The position numbers and the translations under genes were made by a program. 38,108 nt of DNA, taken from Clostridia bacterium. Lineage in GTDB: Bacteria; Bacillota; Clostridia; Christensenellales; Aristaeellaceae. This document shows, in pieces, positions 1-38,108 of the stretch (position 1 is the stretch's first letter; every line of letters begins with the position of its first letter). The notes below the pieces were generated by a model. It was given only the letters and a program-made list of their open reading frames with translations. It searched no databases and was not told where the DNA came from. The stretch spans positions 1 through 38,108 of the forward strand of contig JAFWEL010000071.1 of the NCBI GenBank assembly GCA_017512905.1, given 5' to 3'.

Positions 1-141
1 CTGTCGACCAGAGCAAAAAAGGCTTCCTTGCAGATTTGCCGCCCGGAAATCGCCTGCGATTTCAGGCAAATCTGAGGAGGATGTATTGAAGGGGGACCTG
101 TCCCCCTTCAAACGGGCGCAAGCCCGTGACAAATCAGAATT
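1..141 (-). repeat. Long hairpin-rich repeat, copy 1 (cut by window start)
   Basis: This is the left-over half of the same element seen complete at 13067-13347, here on the opposite strand. It holds the GTCGAC core, the nested CAGATTTGCC/GGCAAATCTG hairpin, the TTGAAGGGGGAC palindrome and the terminal repeat ending ACAAATCAGAATT at 141. It stops two bases short of the stop codon of the ABC ATPase gene, so it may form the 3' end of the iron operon transcript. Bases 1-49 are identical to the last 49 bases of the window. Confidence 0.9.
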
Positions 142-821: not shown

Positions 822-2282
822 TTATTCTCCTTTCAATACGATAGCCGGATCGATGGCCACGGCCCGCTTGATGGGCATCAGGCAGCTGACGGCGGCGATG
901 GCCACGGAGACCAGCACCGTCACCGGCAGTAGCAGCGGCTGGAACGTGATGGACGAGCCGAACACGTTCACGCTGACCACCTGGGCGAACACGAAGCCCA
1001 GTATCGCCCCCAGCACACCGCCCAGTATGCCCAGGAACACGCCCTCGCCCAGGAATTCCACCCTTATCGAGCCGTCCGACGCGCCCAGGGCCTTGCGCAG
1101 GCCGATTTCCCGGCGGCGCTCGGAGACCACTGCCATCATCGTGGTGGACACGCAGATCATCGTCAGCAGCAGTACCACTACGGTCACCAGGAACACCAGC
1201 GCCTGGAGCTTGCCCAGCACCGCCGTCTCCGACTTGGTGACCCGCTTCACCAGTCGCGCCTTCACGCCCTCGCCGCTGCCGGTGATGGCCTCGGCGTAGG
1301 CGTTCAGCTGGTCCTCCTCGGCGGAGACGCTCAGCTCCGTCACGTCCAGCCGATCCTCGCCGGTGAGGGCCTCCATGTCCTCCAGGGACATGAAGATGTA
1401 GCCCTCCTCCTCGCCGCCGGTGGTCAGTATGCCGGTGACGGTGTAGCGCACCGTGTTGGGCTTCGACGCCGCAGTGGCCTGTCGCGCGCCGTTCAGCGCC
1501 TCCACCACGGCGGTGGAGGTGACGGTCGCGCCGGACAGCGCGTCCACATCCTTCCCCAATTCAAGCGGCAGGGACTTGCCGATAAACTGCTCGGCAAACT
1601 CCGGCTCGGTCTGGGTCCTTCCGCCGAACTCGGCCGTCTGGGTGGAGGCGTCGATGGTCAATTCCTTGATCTTCGCCGTGTCGTCCAGCACCGCGGTCAC
1701 GCTCACCGCGCCGCCGCTCCAACCCTCGGCGCTGCCGGTCAGCGTCGCGCCGGGCACCCGGTCCGACGCGGCGTCGCCGCCGGTGGCCGTGGCGGTGGGC
1801 TGCCAGGTCAGCTCCATGTCGGAGCCCACCTTCACGCCGATGGTCTCGGCAATCTCCTTGCCCACCAGCACCTCACGGCCCTTTTCGGGATAGCCGCCCT
1901 CCACGCTGAAGTAGGGGCTGGTCTTGATGACCTGGGAAAAGTCGGTGCCCGCGGTGGTGAAGGACTGCTGGCGGCTGGTCATGTCCAGCCTGACATAGCG
2001 GTACGGGGCCGCGCCCACCAGCGCTTCCCCGGAAAACCGGGTCAGCACCCGGGCCAGCTTCTCCCGATCCAGCGTCTCGCCGTCGTCGGGCATCAGCAGC
2101 ATGTTCGCGCCGTAGGAGCGCATCTGGGCGCGCATCTGCCGGGGCACGTCGTAGTAGATCGTCACCATGCCCGCCAGGATCGTGGCTCCGATGCCGATGG
2201 ACAGCAGCGCGATCAGCATCCGCGACCGCCGCCGCAGCAGCGACGCGGTGATCATCCGCAAGAACATTCTACGCTTCGTCAT
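822..2282 (-). CDS. FtsX/MacB-type ABC permease with inserted FMN-binding domain
   Basis: This 486-residue membrane protein has the FtsX/MacB layout: a helix near residues 22-42, a large extracytosolic domain, then three helices near 357-380, 411-435 and 450-473. Inside the extracytosolic domain, about residues 175-272, is a segment that reads as an FMN-binding domain of the RnfG/NqrC type. It begins with GATLTGSAEGWSGG, continues with a strand-rich stretch, and ends in DALSGATVTS (247-256), the motif in which ApbE links FMN to the Thr of SGAT (T253 here). Family members without the insert run straight through this region; the partner permease does. The ATG (2280-2282) lies one base after the partner permease stop and has GGAGG inside that gene, implying coupled translation. 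A flavin-carrying redox permease is inferred. No apbE gene is in the window. Confidence 0.88.
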   Translation of the reverse strand: MTKRRMFLRMITASLLRRRSRMLIALLSIGIGATILAGMVTIYYDVPRQMRAQMRSYGANMLLMPDDGETLDREKLARVLTRFSGEALVGAAPYRYVRLDMTSRQQSFTTAGTDFSQVIKTSPYFSVEGGYPEKGREVLVGKEIAETIGVKVGSDMELTWQPTATATGGDAASDRVPGATLTGSAEGWSGGAVSVTAVLDDTAKIKELTIDASTQTAEFGGRTQTEPEFAEQFIGKSLPLELGKDVDALSGATVTSTAVVEALNGARQATAASKPNTVRYTVTGILTTGGEEEGYIFMSLEDMEALTGEDRLDVTELSVSAEEDQLNAYAEAITGSGEGVKARLVKRVTKSETAVLGKLQALVFLVTVVVLLLTMICVSTTMMAVVSERRREIGLRKALGASDGSIRVEFLGEGVFLGILGGVLGAILGFVFAQVVSVNVFGSSITFQPLLLPVTVLVSVAIAAVSCLMPIKRAVAIDPAIVLKGE

Positions 2283-5042: not shown

Positions 5043-5591
5043 TTACCACTGCTTCACGAAATCCCAGCCGGTCCAGGTCACGGTCAGGGGCTCGGTCCAG
5101 AAGTTGTCGGCCTCGACGCCGGTCTCCTCGTCCACGTGCAGCAGGTAGCCGTTCTCGGCGGGGCTCTTGATGCTCAGGGTGATGGAGTAGCCTTCGCCCT
5201 CGGGCAGGGCGATGTTGTTGCCGTAGTGGGGGCCGTCGGAAGCCGCCATGGGCATCATGGAGCCGGTGGCGATCTCCTTGCCGTCCTTGTCGTTGATGAC
5301 GTAGTCGATGCTCAGATAGGGCACCCAGCCGTCCACCGGGAAGGAGTAGGGGTTCTCGTTGGCGGTCAGGTCAACCTCGATGTGCAGGTCGGAATCCTCC
5401 TTGGAAGCGGCCAGGTCCGAGGGCGCCATGTCCACGGGCTGGAAGTACACCATCGCCATGGTCATGAAATCCACGGTCTGCTCGCCTTCGACGCCCAGCT
5501 CGAACTCGTCAAAGCCGGCCTCCTCAGCCAGGGCGAAAGCGGACACGCTGAGCATCATCACAGCCAGCAGCAGAGCAAGAAACTTTTTCAT
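5043..5591 (-). CDS. P19-type periplasmic/extracytosolic iron-binding protein (Tp34 family)
   Basis: This is a 182-residue exported protein with a signal peptide in residues 1-22 (MKKFLALLLAVMMLSVSAFA then LA-EE). The metal site of the P19 family is intact: H70, E72 and D74 in DLHIEVDL, then M115, D119 and H122 in MPMAASDGPHYG, and H152 further on. The spacing 70/72/74 and 115/119/122 equals the 42/44/46 and 88/92/95 spacing I recall for the copper and iron ligands of Campylobacter jejuni P19. The start at 5591 is preferred over upstream in-frame codons because it begins the signal peptide and has GGGAGG eight bases upstream. It sits between FTR1 and DUF2318 genes, as in FetMP-type systems, and should hand iron to FTR1 (family knowledge). 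Confidence 0.95.
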   Translation of the reverse strand: MKKFLALLLAVMMLSVSAFALAEEAGFDEFELGVEGEQTVDFMTMAMVYFQPVDMAPSDLAASKEDSDLHIEVDLTANENPYSFPVDGWVPYLSIDYVINDKDGKEIATGSMMPMAASDGPHYGNNIALPEGEGYSITLSIKSPAENGYLLHVDEETGVEADNFWTEPLTVTWTGWDFVKQW

Positions 5592-5667
5592 GTGAATTGC
5601 CTCCCAAATCGTTGATATTGTTTGTATCTTCAACGCGCCTGCGCGGGGCAGGGCGTGGAGAACCCTA

Positions 5668-7526: not shown

Positions 7527-7545
7527 TTATTTTAGCACAAACTAA
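7527..7545 (-). promoter_or_regulatory. DtxR/IdeR-like box upstream of the iron operon
   Basis: On the minus strand TTAGTTTGTGCTAAAATAA matches the DtxR/IdeR consensus TTAGGTTAGSCTAACCTAA at 14 of 19 positions by eye. It overlaps a TAAAAT that could serve as -10 and ends about 80 bases upstream of the FTR1 start. No good -35 was found. An iron-dependent repressor site fits the operon content, but binding is inferred. Confidence 0.5.
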
Positions 7546-7736: not shown

Positions 7737-8138
7737 AAATTCTGATTTGTCGCGGGCTTGTGCCCGTTTGAAGGGGGACAGGTCCCCCTTCAATACATCC
7801 TCCTCAGATTTGCCTGAAATCGTCCTAAAGGACTAGCTTCGCGTCGCAGGCGATTTCCGGGCGGCAAATCTGCAAGGAAGCCTTTTTTGCTCTGGTCGAC
7901 AGGCTCCCTGACGCCCTAAAGGACTAGCTTCGCGTCGCAAAAAAGACCCCGCCCGCGGCGTACACTCCGCCGCGTACGATTGAAGATCGGGGCGCTCCGC
8001 CCCCGATACCCCCGGTAAGTTAGCCAAAAGCCTCCCCTGCGACGCGAAGCTAGTGGGGAGGTGGCCCCGCCAAAGGCGGGGTCGGAGGGGTTCCGCGTGC
8101 TCAGCAACACCCCGCCAAATCCGAATTCATCTGTCAGA
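7737..8138 (+). repeat. Long hairpin-rich repeat, copy 2, with nested insertions
   Basis: The left terminal repeat AAATTCTGATTTGTCG begins at 7737, and the element is recognisable to about 8030. Compared with copy 3 it has two 24-base insertions (7823-7846 and 7914-7937), both ending CTAAAGGACTAGCTTCGCGTCG with different first bases. The normal right end is replaced by a different repeat at 8023-8090 and by a degraded terminus near 8117-8138. The gap 7447-8194 holds no gene. It consists of the FTR1 leader and control region, an orphan TATAAT at 7706-7711, this repeat, and 56 bases of AT-rich sequence before the pseudouridine synthase stop. Confidence 0.85.
8023..8090 (+). repeat. Second repeat family, GGGGAGGTGGCC type, nested in copy 2
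   Basis: CCAAAAGCCTCCCC pairs with GGGGAGG, and is followed by a GGCCCCGCC/GGCGGGGTC hairpin. The layout equals the arm of the element at 19345-19373 (CCAAAGCCTTCCCCC...GGGGAAGGTGGCCC). The loop (8040-8054) contains the reverse complement of the 24-base insert found twice in copy 2. Confidence 0.65.
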
Positions 8139-11777: not shown

Positions 11778-11867
11778 AGCCCGGAGGGGCGCAGCCCCTC
11801 CGGTACATAGCCTGTATTGGATTTGACGAAAAACAGGGATCATTGGTTCACGGGGTGGGGAGCTTAG

Positions 11868-11904
11868 AAATTCTGATTTGCCGCGCAGCGACAAATCAGA
11901 ATTT
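11868..11904. repeat. Solo palindrome of the AAATTCTGATTT family
   Basis: AAATTCTGATTTGCCG and CGACAAATCAGAATTT flank a five-base centre (37 bp in all). It overlaps the last codons of the M20 amidohydrolase gene and supplies its TGA stop. Confidence 0.9.
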
Positions 11905-13066: not shown

Positions 13067-13347
13067 AAATTCTGATTTGTCGCGGGCTTGCGCCCGCTTG
13101 AAGGGGGACAAGTCCCCCTTCAATACATCCTCCTCAGATTTGCCTGAAATCGCAGGCGATTTCCGGGCGGCAAATCTGCAAGGAAGCCTTTTTTGCTCTG
13201 GTCGACAGGCTCCCTGCCGCAAAAAAAGGCCCCGCCCGCGGCGTACACGCCGCCGCGTACGATTAAAGATCGGGGCGTTACCGCCCCCGATACCCCCGGT
13301 AAGTTAGCCAAAGGGGAGTTCGTCATCAGCTCGATAAATCAGAATTT
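13067..13347 (+). repeat. Long hairpin-rich repeat, copy 3 (complete, reference copy)
   Basis: This 281-bp copy has terminal inverted repeats AAATTCTGATTTGTCG (13067-13082) and CGATAAATCAGAATTT (13332-13347), differing at one position. Inside is a chain of hairpins: GCGGGC/GCCCGC, TTGAAGGGGGAC with its complement, CAGATTTGCC/GGCAAATCTG enclosing GAAATCG/CGATTTC, a CCTTTTTTGC/GCAAAAAAAGG pair around GTCGAC, GGCGTACACGCC, and GGGGCG/CGCCCC. No coding frame is apparent. It fills nearly the entire gap (13051-13364) between two divergent genes. Confidence 0.92.
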
Positions 13348-31087: not shown

Positions 31088-31263
31088 CCCGATTGATGTT
31101 ATATTGTCGTATTACGTCATGGGGGCATATGGTGTCGATTGGGGTCGTACAGAGCAGCATGTTCCCCGCCGTCGCGTCCCGCGCCCGCGCCTTCCGCCCA
31201 AGGACATAGCCACGCGCACCCGGAGGGAAAGGCGGCCTTTGGGGCTCACGTCAGCTTATCGAC

Positions 31264-31300
31264 AAATTCTGATTTGTCGCGCTGCGACAAATCAGAATTT
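31264..31300. repeat. Solo palindrome, G-type arms
   Basis: AAATTCTGATTTGTCGC and GCGACAAATCAGAATTT are exact complements around a three-base centre (37 bp). It lies in the 473-base gap between the divergent EamA and amylase genes (31016-31488). The rest of that gap holds the two promoters and about 175 bases (31088-31262) in which I see nothing recognisable. Confidence 0.9.
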
Positions 31301-31373
31301 CAATACCTCCAACCGCTGCGCACAAATTTCACATCCCCCTAACCCCGCCATCCTGTTTTTCCGCCAATCGGCC

Positions 31374-36471: not shown

Positions 36472-36508
36472 AAATTCTGATTTGTCGCAACGCGACAAAT
36501 CAGAATTT
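36472..36508. repeat. Solo palindrome, G-type arms
   Basis: AAATTCTGATTTGTCGC and GCGACAAATCAGAATTT surround AAC (37 bp). It lies between the thi promoter and the 3' end of the zinc-ribbon gene, nine bases past its stop. Confidence 0.9.
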
Positions 36509-36517
36509 TCTCCCTCA

Positions 36518-37894
36518 TCACCCCGCCACGTCCATGTACAGCGCGACCAGCATCGGGTAGTATTCGGACTGGTACATGTGCTGACCGTCCACATAGGCGT
36601 AGGCCTGGTAGCTGCGGCCCAGGGTCGGGCTGGTGATGGTGGTGTCGTTGACCAGGATGACCAGCTGGCGCTCGGTGGTGCCCACGTCCATGACCAGGCA
36701 CTTGCGGCCGTCGTCGTCGGTGAAGCTGTCGATGATCGGGCCCTTGCACACGAAGCTCTGGTAGCGCCAGTTCTCGAACAGCAGGCGCAGCTGCGGGTAA
36801 TCCATGGCCCAGGCGCGGCCGGACATCTCGTCCAGGGACGGCCTGTAATTCACGTTCAGGGTGATCTCGGCGTCCTGCTTGCCCTCCTTGGTGGCGCGGA
36901 AGCGGACGATGTTGTTGCCGTAGTTGGTGAACTGGGCCACGAAGGAGAAGCGGCCGGTCTGCGGGTCGACGCTCAGGCTCTCCGGGATGTGGTCGGTGTC
37001 CACCGCGATGGACGCCCCGGGCTCGGTGGTGCCGGTGACGGCCATGGTGCGGGCCGTGGACACGCTGGAAACGGTGGTGTCCAGCTCCAGCTCGATGTCG
37101 TAGTGCTGGCGGAAGATCACCAGCTCGCGGCGGCATTCCCGGTGCTTCGGGGTGCGCACGATCAGGGTGATCACGTTGTCGCCAATGGGCTTGACACTGA
37201 CGTAGGTGGAGAGGTAACCGCTGCGGTCCACGGATTCGGTGACGTCCTCGCCGTTGACGAACACGGTGCTGCCGGGCACCACGTTCAGCGTCAGCGGATA
37301 CACGCCCACGACCACGGTGGTGCGCTCCTCGGCGGGGCTGGTGACCAGCAGCGGCGATACGGGCACGTCCACCTGGAAGTTGAACTGGGGCAGCTCGGTC
37401 TTCCTGCCGCTCTCGCTGATGAGCATCGGCGACAGGGTGATGTCCGCGTATTCCACGTCGGTGACGTTGTTGGAGAACCACTCGGAATCCGCCAGCTCCA
37501 TGCGCGCCACGCCGCCGGAGATCGACAGCGAGCGCTGCAGCTCCGGCACGTAGATCTGGTCGCCGTCCCGGCCGAAGAAGATCACGGCGTGGCCCTGGCG
37601 CATGTCGTCCATCTGCACCTCGGAGAGGGTGGGCGCGTAGGCCCCGCGGGTGTACAGCCGGGTCAGCTGGTAGCTTCGGATCCAGCTGAACAGCTTGTAG
37701 CCGCCCACGGCCAGGCCGACGGCGAACAGCACCACAAGCACCGCCGTCAGGGCCTTCTGGCCGGCGGTGCGCTTCTCACGCTGCTTTTCCTGCCGCGAGC
37801 GGGATTCGTCGCGGGCGCTGGGCAGCGGCTGCTTGCAGCTGGGGCAGTACAGCGCGTCGTCCGCGCACACACTGCCACAATAGGGACATTTCAC
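36518..37894 (-). CDS. Zinc-ribbon, single-helix membrane protein with large extracytosolic region
   Basis: This 458-residue protein starts with a zinc ribbon (C3, C6, C17, C20; MKCPYCGSVCADDALYCPSC), a charged segment (25-45), one membrane helix (about 47-68) and a long beta-rich extracytosolic part. That part includes an apparent Ig-like or bacterial surface domain around 200-300 (VFVNGEDVTESVDRSGYLSTYVSVKPIGDNVITLIV) and a second near 290-350 (VTGTTEPGASIAVD), then a C-terminal domain I do not recognise. Zinc-ribbon plus one helix is a common layout in Clostridia; function is unknown. GTG 37894 has GGAGG seven to eight bases upstream. The long repeat copy 4 begins 27 bases upstream of the start, so its promoter must be in or beyond that repeat. 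Confidence 0.87.
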   Translation of the reverse strand: MKCPYCGSVCADDALYCPSCKQPLPSARDESRSRQEKQREKRTAGQKALTAVLVVLFAVGLAVGGYKLFSWIRSYQLTRLYTRGAYAPTLSEVQMDDMRQGHAVIFFGRDGDQIYVPELQRSLSISGGVARMELADSEWFSNNVTDVEYADITLSPMLISESGRKTELPQFNFQVDVPVSPLLVTSPAEERTTVVVGVYPLTLNVVPGSTVFVNGEDVTESVDRSGYLSTYVSVKPIGDNVITLIVRTPKHRECRRELVIFRQHYDIELELDTTVSSVSTARTMAVTGTTEPGASIAVDTDHIPESLSVDPQTGRFSFVAQFTNYGNNIVRFRATKEGKQDAEITLNVNYRPSLDEMSGRAWAMDYPQLRLLFENWRYQSFVCKGPIIDSFTDDDGRKCLVMDVGTTERQLVILVNDTTITSPTLGRSYQAYAYVDGQHMYQSEYYPMLVALYMDVAG

Positions 37895-37921: not shown

Positions 37922-38108
37922 AAATTCTGATTTATCGCGCTGATGACGAACTCCCCTTTGGCTAACTAACCGGGGGTATCGGGGGCGGTAGCGCCCCGAT
38001 CTTTAATCGTACGCGGCGGCGTGTACGCCGCGGGCGGGGCCTTTTTTGCGGCAGGGAGCCTGTCGACCAGAGCAAAAAAGGCTTCCTTGCAGATTTGCCG
38101 CCCGGAAA
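37922..38108 (-). repeat. Long hairpin-rich repeat, copy 4 (cut by window end)
   Basis: The element begins with AAATTCTGATTTATCG (37922-37937) and runs in the opposite orientation to copy 3 through the GTCGAC core, until the window ends. If joined to bases 50-141 of the window, it would give one complete element of about 280 bp. Confidence 0.9.

Follow-up and report, generated by a model that had tools for sequence, protein, structure and literature searches.

A predicted FMN-binding domain inserted in the FetC-type permease of Fet/P19 iron-uptake operons in gut Clostridia

Iron-uptake clusters of the Fet/P19 type are known from Campylobacter jejuni (fetMP-fetABCDEF; PMC6083913, PMC10783030) and Bifidobacterium breve (bfeUO-sifABCDE; PMC5449479). 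The two clusters agree in gene content and gene order, with genes for an iron permease, an iron-binding protein, an FtrD-like protein, two FtsX permeases and an ATPase. In both, the redox partner is encoded separately, by the thioredoxin genes fetE/F in C. jejuni and the gene for the flavin mononucleotide (FMN)-binding protein SifE in B. breve; our own comparison suggests that sifABCDE corresponds to fetABCD plus one further gene, here called gene 7. Each of fetA to fetD matters for growth of C. jejuni at low iron, and the role of the ATP-binding cassette (ABC) transporter of this widespread system has been called an open question (PMC10783030). Operons of this type with a separate FMN-binding gene 7 are also described in other Gram-positive bacteria (Liu 2018, PMC6083913; Meheust 2021, PMC8238504), and in the latter work flavinylation was tied to P19/FTR1 uptake in 260 clusters, mostly Gram-positive. 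In this study, a 38,108-nt contig (JAFWEL010000071.1, hereafter the window) from a Clostridia bacterium of the family Aristaeellaceae (assembly GCA_017512905.1) was analysed. It carries an operon with the same gene kinds in the same order, in which a predicted FMN-binding domain lies inside the FetC-type permease (P0001); in contrast to the C. jejuni and B. breve clusters, the operons with this fusion that could be judged lack the separate gene.

The domain was matched by Pfam at amino acids (aa) 190–266 of FetC as FMN_bind (PF04205; 35.4 bits and E 1.7e-8, the gathering score being 22), and FtsX (PF02687) was matched at aa 365–479. A genome-wide profile scan gave an FMN_bind match of 40.3 bits at 1485–1715. 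In NCBIfam, RnfG models aligned to aa 173–275 and LolC/E-type permease models to the C-terminal part, both below their cut-offs. Structure modelling predicted an NqrC/RnfG-like fold for the insert, and the full-length model matched LolE, LolC and MacB among PDB structures. The insert contains DALSGATVTS (aa 247–256), which includes the [S/T]-G-A-[S/T] flavinylation motif. An unfused homologue had 400 aa against 486 aa in the window, and a short stretch spanned the insertion site. The FMN domain is extracytosolic and lies within the Sabre-like part of the FetC outer domain.

A first-pass annotation of the window, made from the sequence alone, had placed some 98 extra residues at aa 175–272, ending in this motif, missing from the partner permease and encoded beside FTR1, P19 and DUF2318 genes. 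Its coordinates (1467–1760) agree with ours, the strand, which it did not give, being minus, and the figure of 98 is fair. The partner permease was matched only by FtsX and MacB_PCD, with no FMN_bind in Pfam, and the three neighbours were all recognised by Pfam (P19 as PF10634, DUF2318 as PF10080). The same annotation had looked to a PF04205 match, an RnfG/NqrC fold and an apbE gene as signs of a flavin domain; the first two are given above, and the third was also found (see below).

Both permeases contain PF02687, FetB has MacB_PCD, and the outer domain of FetC is MacB-like by structural match. These are features of Type VII (MacB/LolCDE/FtsEX) ABC transporters, in which an FtsX permease carries a MacB-like outer domain; unlike them, FetC has a redox domain in its Sabre-like part. 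The domain, motif and fold are those of the tandem multi-flavinylated proteins SaFMN3 and CbFMN4 (PMC10339131) and of RnfG/NqrC. Those proteins are extracellular or complex-bound relays, whereas the domain of FetC is embedded in an ABC permease.

When the GTDB species genomes were scanned, 531 relatives were found and the best 80 retained. All 80 carried the domain in the same permease, with 63–94% identity to the window protein, and chance or a frame artefact was therefore ruled out as its source. These relatives are mostly uncultured Clostridia or Clostridiales, several from the gut of sheep, goat or roe deer. When they were aligned with the window protein, Asp247 and Gly251 were present in 81/81 rows and Ala252, Thr253 and Ser256 in 80/81.

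Of the 250 genomes scanned within the family, 92 had a match at E 1e-20. As judged by eye, 83 of these spanned the insert, 3 were unfused (G872, G793, and G741), 1 was a fragment (G786), and 5 matched by FMN domains only. The order gave matches in 6 of 297 genomes, of which 5 were fused and 1 (G238) was unfused. At the class level 7 of 391 matched: the window's own genome was fused and 6 alignments skipped the insert, 4 of these being confirmed as unfused. In a phylum sample, PF10080 was matched in 65 of 398 genomes, and stretches from 20 of these 65 yielded 14 Fet operons, none of them fused and one (L147) without a recognised P19. Independent fusions in other lineages were found neither among these 14 operons nor among the 6 class-level matches (4 fetched). 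Genome G872, of the same genus as the window, has an unfused Fet operon with gene 7 (L192) whose FTR1 is 37% identical to that of the window; this operon was perhaps acquired from another lineage.

Profile scans of the window's own genome, the assembly of which is 92% complete, detected one ApbE and nine FMN_bind matches. ApbE was present in 10/10 genomes tested, comprising this one and 9/9 others (G284, G834, G856, G254, G079, G264, G741, G238, and G872). Judging from sequence, ApbE very probably attaches FMN covalently to Thr253.

Operons were classified at 109 of 110 loci; L068, without FetB, was dropped. None of the 72 fused operons that could be judged had a neighbouring small FMN gene (gene 7), and another 15 were left unjudged at contig ends. 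Of the 22 unfused operons, gene 7 was present in 13 and absent in 9; in one of the latter (L142), a small neighbouring frame had a cytochrome c7-like match below the cut-off. L063 and L204 have the same sequence, and L020 and L053 show 98.6% identity; once such copies are removed, the figures become 70, 15, 13, and 9. Gene 7 lay within about 410 bases after FetD in 3 family and 4 class unfused operons (L192–L198), and in unfused L023 it also followed FetD. The FMN_bind frames at the operons of G741, G238 and G872 were 183, 168 and 163 aa long. Relocation of gene 7 was also considered: no FMN_bind frame shorter than 262 aa was found in six fused genomes (G284, G834, G856, G254, G079, and G264), and the scan of the window's own 92%-complete assembly revealed none shorter than 516 aa. 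The FMN profile used for classification was seeded with some inserts, domains from the own genome and one gene-7 protein (L023), so that very divergent gene-7 proteins may be missed. Six fused loci had an additional distant long FMN-type frame (522–1015 aa), which was not scored as gene 7.

A tree was built from the backbone, i.e., FetB, FetC minus the insert, and FetD, with 66 rows (44 fused and 22 unfused). The fused rows formed one group with support of 100 in the Shimodaira-Hasegawa-like approximate likelihood ratio test (SH-aLRT), and gene 7 was present in every one of the unfused rows closest to this group. This was a quick search with SH-aLRT support only, the chosen outgroup did not form one side of a branch, and L029, L031, L059, L079 and L089, together with roughly half of the fused rows, were not included. 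As read from this tree, the fusion is a single event among gene-7 operons and has been stably kept.

The source of the insert was sought in a tree of 89 FMN domains, which had 100 columns only and an unsettled bootstrap. Gene-7 domains formed one clade (98/90), and 20 of the 21 inserts clustered with domains 2 and 3 of multi-FMN tandem proteins encoded within the same bacterial family (97/96); the insert of L202 was long-branched and unplaced. One such protein, a 1528-aa frame in G878 (L199:5210-9793), has eleven FMN_bind stretches, and its domains 2 and 3 were among the closest sampled kin of the insert. The window insert shared 63% identity with domain 2 of this protein across 99 residues, and 35% with gene 7 of G238 across 57 residues. 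Forcing the inserts together with gene 7 lowered the log-likelihood by 32 (p = 0.061 in the approximately unbiased test). Origin from gene 7 by simple gene fusion is disfavoured by these sequence comparisons, which suggest to us that the permease received a flavin domain from another source and that this made the separate subunit dispensable. Several independent insertions need not be assumed: the fused rows are one backbone clade, and all 21 inserts constrained as one clade were not rejected (p = 0.422, same test).

The operon is of the Fet/P19 iron-uptake type and comprises FTR1, P19, FtrD, FetB, FetC and FetD (Table 1). This order was found in the window and was the same in relatives with contigs long enough. 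The listed frames are on a single strand and spaced by 1 to 143 bases; the actual start of the P19 frame is probably an internal ATG.

Table 1. Features of the Fet/P19 operon and adjoining elements in the window
Feature	Position	Strand	Basis
Dispersed repeat at contig end, just downstream of FetD	1..141	+	
FetD-type ABC ATPase, 224 aa	144..818	-	ABC_tran
FetC-type FtsX/MacB-class permease with FMN domain, 486 aa (P0001)	822..2282	-	Pfam; full-length model similar to LolC/E and MacB
FMN-binding domain inserted in FetC, aa 175-272	1467..1760	-	
Thr253 codon, predicted flavin attachment site in DALSGATVTS	1524..1526	-	Thr in 80/81 aligned rows; [S/T]GA[S/T] motif as in part of PMC8238504
FetB-type partner permease without insert, 431 aa	2284..3579	-	FtsX and MacB_PCD only
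FetA/FtrD-like membrane protein (DUF2318), 431 aa	3604..4899	-	PF10080, 94.7 bits
P19/FetP iron-binding protein	5043..5633	-	PF10634, 160.2 bits
FTR1/FetM iron permease, 594 aa	5668..7452	-	PF03239, 134.5 bits
TTAG-N6-CTAA operator-like site upstream of FTR1	7532..7545	-	Recurrence across loci

The operator-like site upstream of FTR1 was present in 47 of the 53 loci with enough upstream sequence, including the window, against a mean of 0.32 of 53 in 100 dinucleotide shuffles. Its half sites are presumably of the DtxR type. The own genome had two DtxR-family matches; therefore, control of the operon by iron is likely.

A DUF4418 protein followed the operon in 66 of the 72 judged fused loci and in 2 of the 22 unfused ones. 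Another ABC ATPase, encoded on the same strand, came after 65 of the 72 fused operons (2 without, 5 undetermined) and after 2 of the 22 unfused operons (16 without, 4 undetermined). These two genes are perhaps a further part of the system. In the own genome, contig C40 (L211) starts with a relative, as judged by eye, of the dispersed repeat in which the window contig stops past FetD. Next come DUF4418 and an ABC ATPase, flanking a frame that resembles FtsX permeases, and this contig yielded no FMN domain. It is probably the continuation of the window operon.

The dispersed repeat is rich in palindromes and has copies at 1–141, 7737–8004, 13067–13287 and 37922–38108 of the window. At least 40 places in the own genome were 98–100% identical to window 1–140 (40 scored of 173 candidates), many of them exactly at contig ends. 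Another short palindromic repeat, built on AAATTCTGATTTGTCGC together with the reverse complement of this sequence, was observed at 11851–11904, 31263–31314 and 36472–36525.

The reading that we favour, and regard as probable, is that FetC of a Fet/P19 operon gained an extracytosolic FMN domain that displaced a separate flavin protein and exchanges electrons with iron. The domain would replace the SifE-like gene-7 protein of the ancestral operon. From the Sabre region of the ATP-driven FetBCD, its FMN would exchange electrons with iron at the P19/FtrD face of the membrane, and a redox role of the flavin toward iron of this kind is likely. As to direction, the balance tips slightly towards reduction: the flavin would most likely reduce chelated ferric iron, enabling its hand-over to FTR1. 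Electrons may be supplied via FtrD or another membrane electron carrier, the sole NQR2/RnfD-type match being on contig C96. FetBCD itself would carry no iron, and movement of its outer domain might, with rather less probability, bring the flavin to and from its partner.

The first-pass annotation had proposed that ATP-driven movement is coupled to electron transfer on the outer face, as a candidate undescribed mechanism. The iron-operon context and the extracytosolic placement fit this proposal. In MacB, ATP is coupled to outer-domain movement, with mechanical work outside the membrane and not substrate passage (PMC5985334); because MacB-type transporters work in this way, such coupling is plausible by analogy in FetBCD. 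Gating of the flavin by ATP is a more tentative suggestion, and a somewhat doubtful one. ATP binding would close the FetB/FetC outer domains and swing the FMN between the electron donor and P19- or chelate-bound iron, and hydrolysis would time or drive the extracellular redox step, as the nitrogenase Fe protein does intracellularly. If this is true, other Fet systems would have their separate FMN or thioredoxin subunits docked on the same Sabre surface.

Several observations weigh against the reading of FetC as a permease with an acquired, iron-directed flavin. Nine of the 22 unfused operons have neither the insert nor a recognised neighbouring gene 7; therefore, a flavin subunit is not obligatory for such operons. 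Because the fusion arose once on the tree, the many loci cannot be counted as separate proofs that gene 7 was functionally replaced. As the window contig extends 143 bases beyond FetD, the lack of gene 7 in the window itself rests on the relatives and the genome scan. The p value of 0.061 is no formal rejection of a gene-7 origin of the insert. The models are of moderate confidence, with a mean predicted local distance difference test score (pLDDT) of 80.0 and a predicted template modelling score (pTM) of 0.54 for whole FetC, and 72.6 and 0.61 for the FMN domain, and Foldseek alone gave no match for the domain at E 0.001 or better. In one fused FetC (L089), a gap of about 28 residues covers the motif including the Thr, which may be a real loss or an assembly error. 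Finally, ferric reduction fits poorly with B. breve, because sif mutants there suffer from ferrous chelation.

These sif mutants and an apbE mutant were impaired by ferrous, not ferric, chelators, and the apbE phenotype was ascribed by the authors to iron-sulfur (Fe-S) clusters (PMC5449479); we suggest loss of SifE flavinylation instead. The phenotype points to ferrous uptake and therefore leaves room for the flavin as an acceptor in iron oxidation. In that case, the flavin would take an electron from oxidation of P19-bound Fe(II), FTR1, a permease of the oxidase-dependent type, would pass Fe(III), and FetBCD/FtrD would dispose of the electron. Besides the sensitivity of the mutants to ferrous chelators only, the need of strict anaerobes for an acceptor other than oxygen would favour this route. 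FMN at the potential of −184 mV reported for another multi-FMN protein (PMC10339131) accepts electrons from Fe(II) poorly, however, unless Fe(III) is bound very tightly at its site, and reduction was suggested by both Liu 2018 (PMC6083913) and Meheust 2021 (PMC8238504). We consider this direction possible but unlikely.

Alternatively, the FMN domain may serve thiol/disulfide or Fe-S chemistry on FtrD and keep the system redox-poised, with no direct contact with iron. Most of the Proteobacteria covered by Liu 2018 (PMC6083913) have a thioredoxin as their seventh gene, C. jejuni FetE resembles thiol-disulfide oxidases, and FtrD-like proteins have conserved CxxC pairs (PMC6083913, PMC10783030). 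Such a role is nevertheless compatible with one toward iron, as FMN domains of this class pass electrons to many partners, and as a separate explanation it appears improbable, though worth keeping in view. That LolC/E and MacB are the closest solved structures could also indicate an exporter or lipoprotein-type machine unrelated to the adjacent iron genes, but the conserved order from FTR1 to FetD, the effect of fetB, fetC and fetD each at low iron in C. jejuni (PMC10783030) and the iron-type operator upstream make this very unlikely. A non-flavinylated remnant or structural spacer retained by descent, to which the motif gap in L089 might point, is hardly credible in view of the 81/81 and 80/81 conservation of the motif residues, ApbE in all ten genomes tested and the lack of gene 7 in all 72 judged fused operons.

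Turning to electron sources, a complete Rnf requires two NQR2/RnfD/RnfE-family subunits. The own genome had a single match to this family, on contig C96, and a full Rnf complex was therefore not found in the 92%-complete assembly. The same contig encodes an NrfA-type cytochrome c552 protein that has two FMN_bind domains (L207:1128-3779), about 2 kb from the NQR2/RnfD-type membrane protein, which is itself fused to FMN_bind (L207:5899-7473); the pair may form a respiratory nitrite reductase fed by flavin. Contig C165 encodes another DUF2318/FtrD-like protein, which is shorter (L150, 238-aa frame), and neither FTR1 nor P19 was recognised in the 18 kb analysed around it.

No description of an FMN domain fused into a Fet permease was found in full-text literature searches, with subscription journals largely outside the scope. 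The words "ABC", "permease", "FtsX" and "DUF2318" are absent from the main text of PMC8238504, the supplement of which may hold fused cases. A link between an FMN-binding protein, as a separate gene, and P19/FTR1 is already in print (PMC6083913, PMC8238504), and "undescribed mechanism" was for this reason too strong; the new element is the fusion into the permease. With this fusion, which occurs in gut and rumen bacteria, an ABC permease joins the proteins that host ApbE-type flavin domains. The natural fusion implies that the redox subunit belongs on the outer domain of FetC, so that a link known from gene neighbourhood becomes a contact open to testing, and the ATPase of the Fet system may act on electron transfer rather than on the passage of iron.
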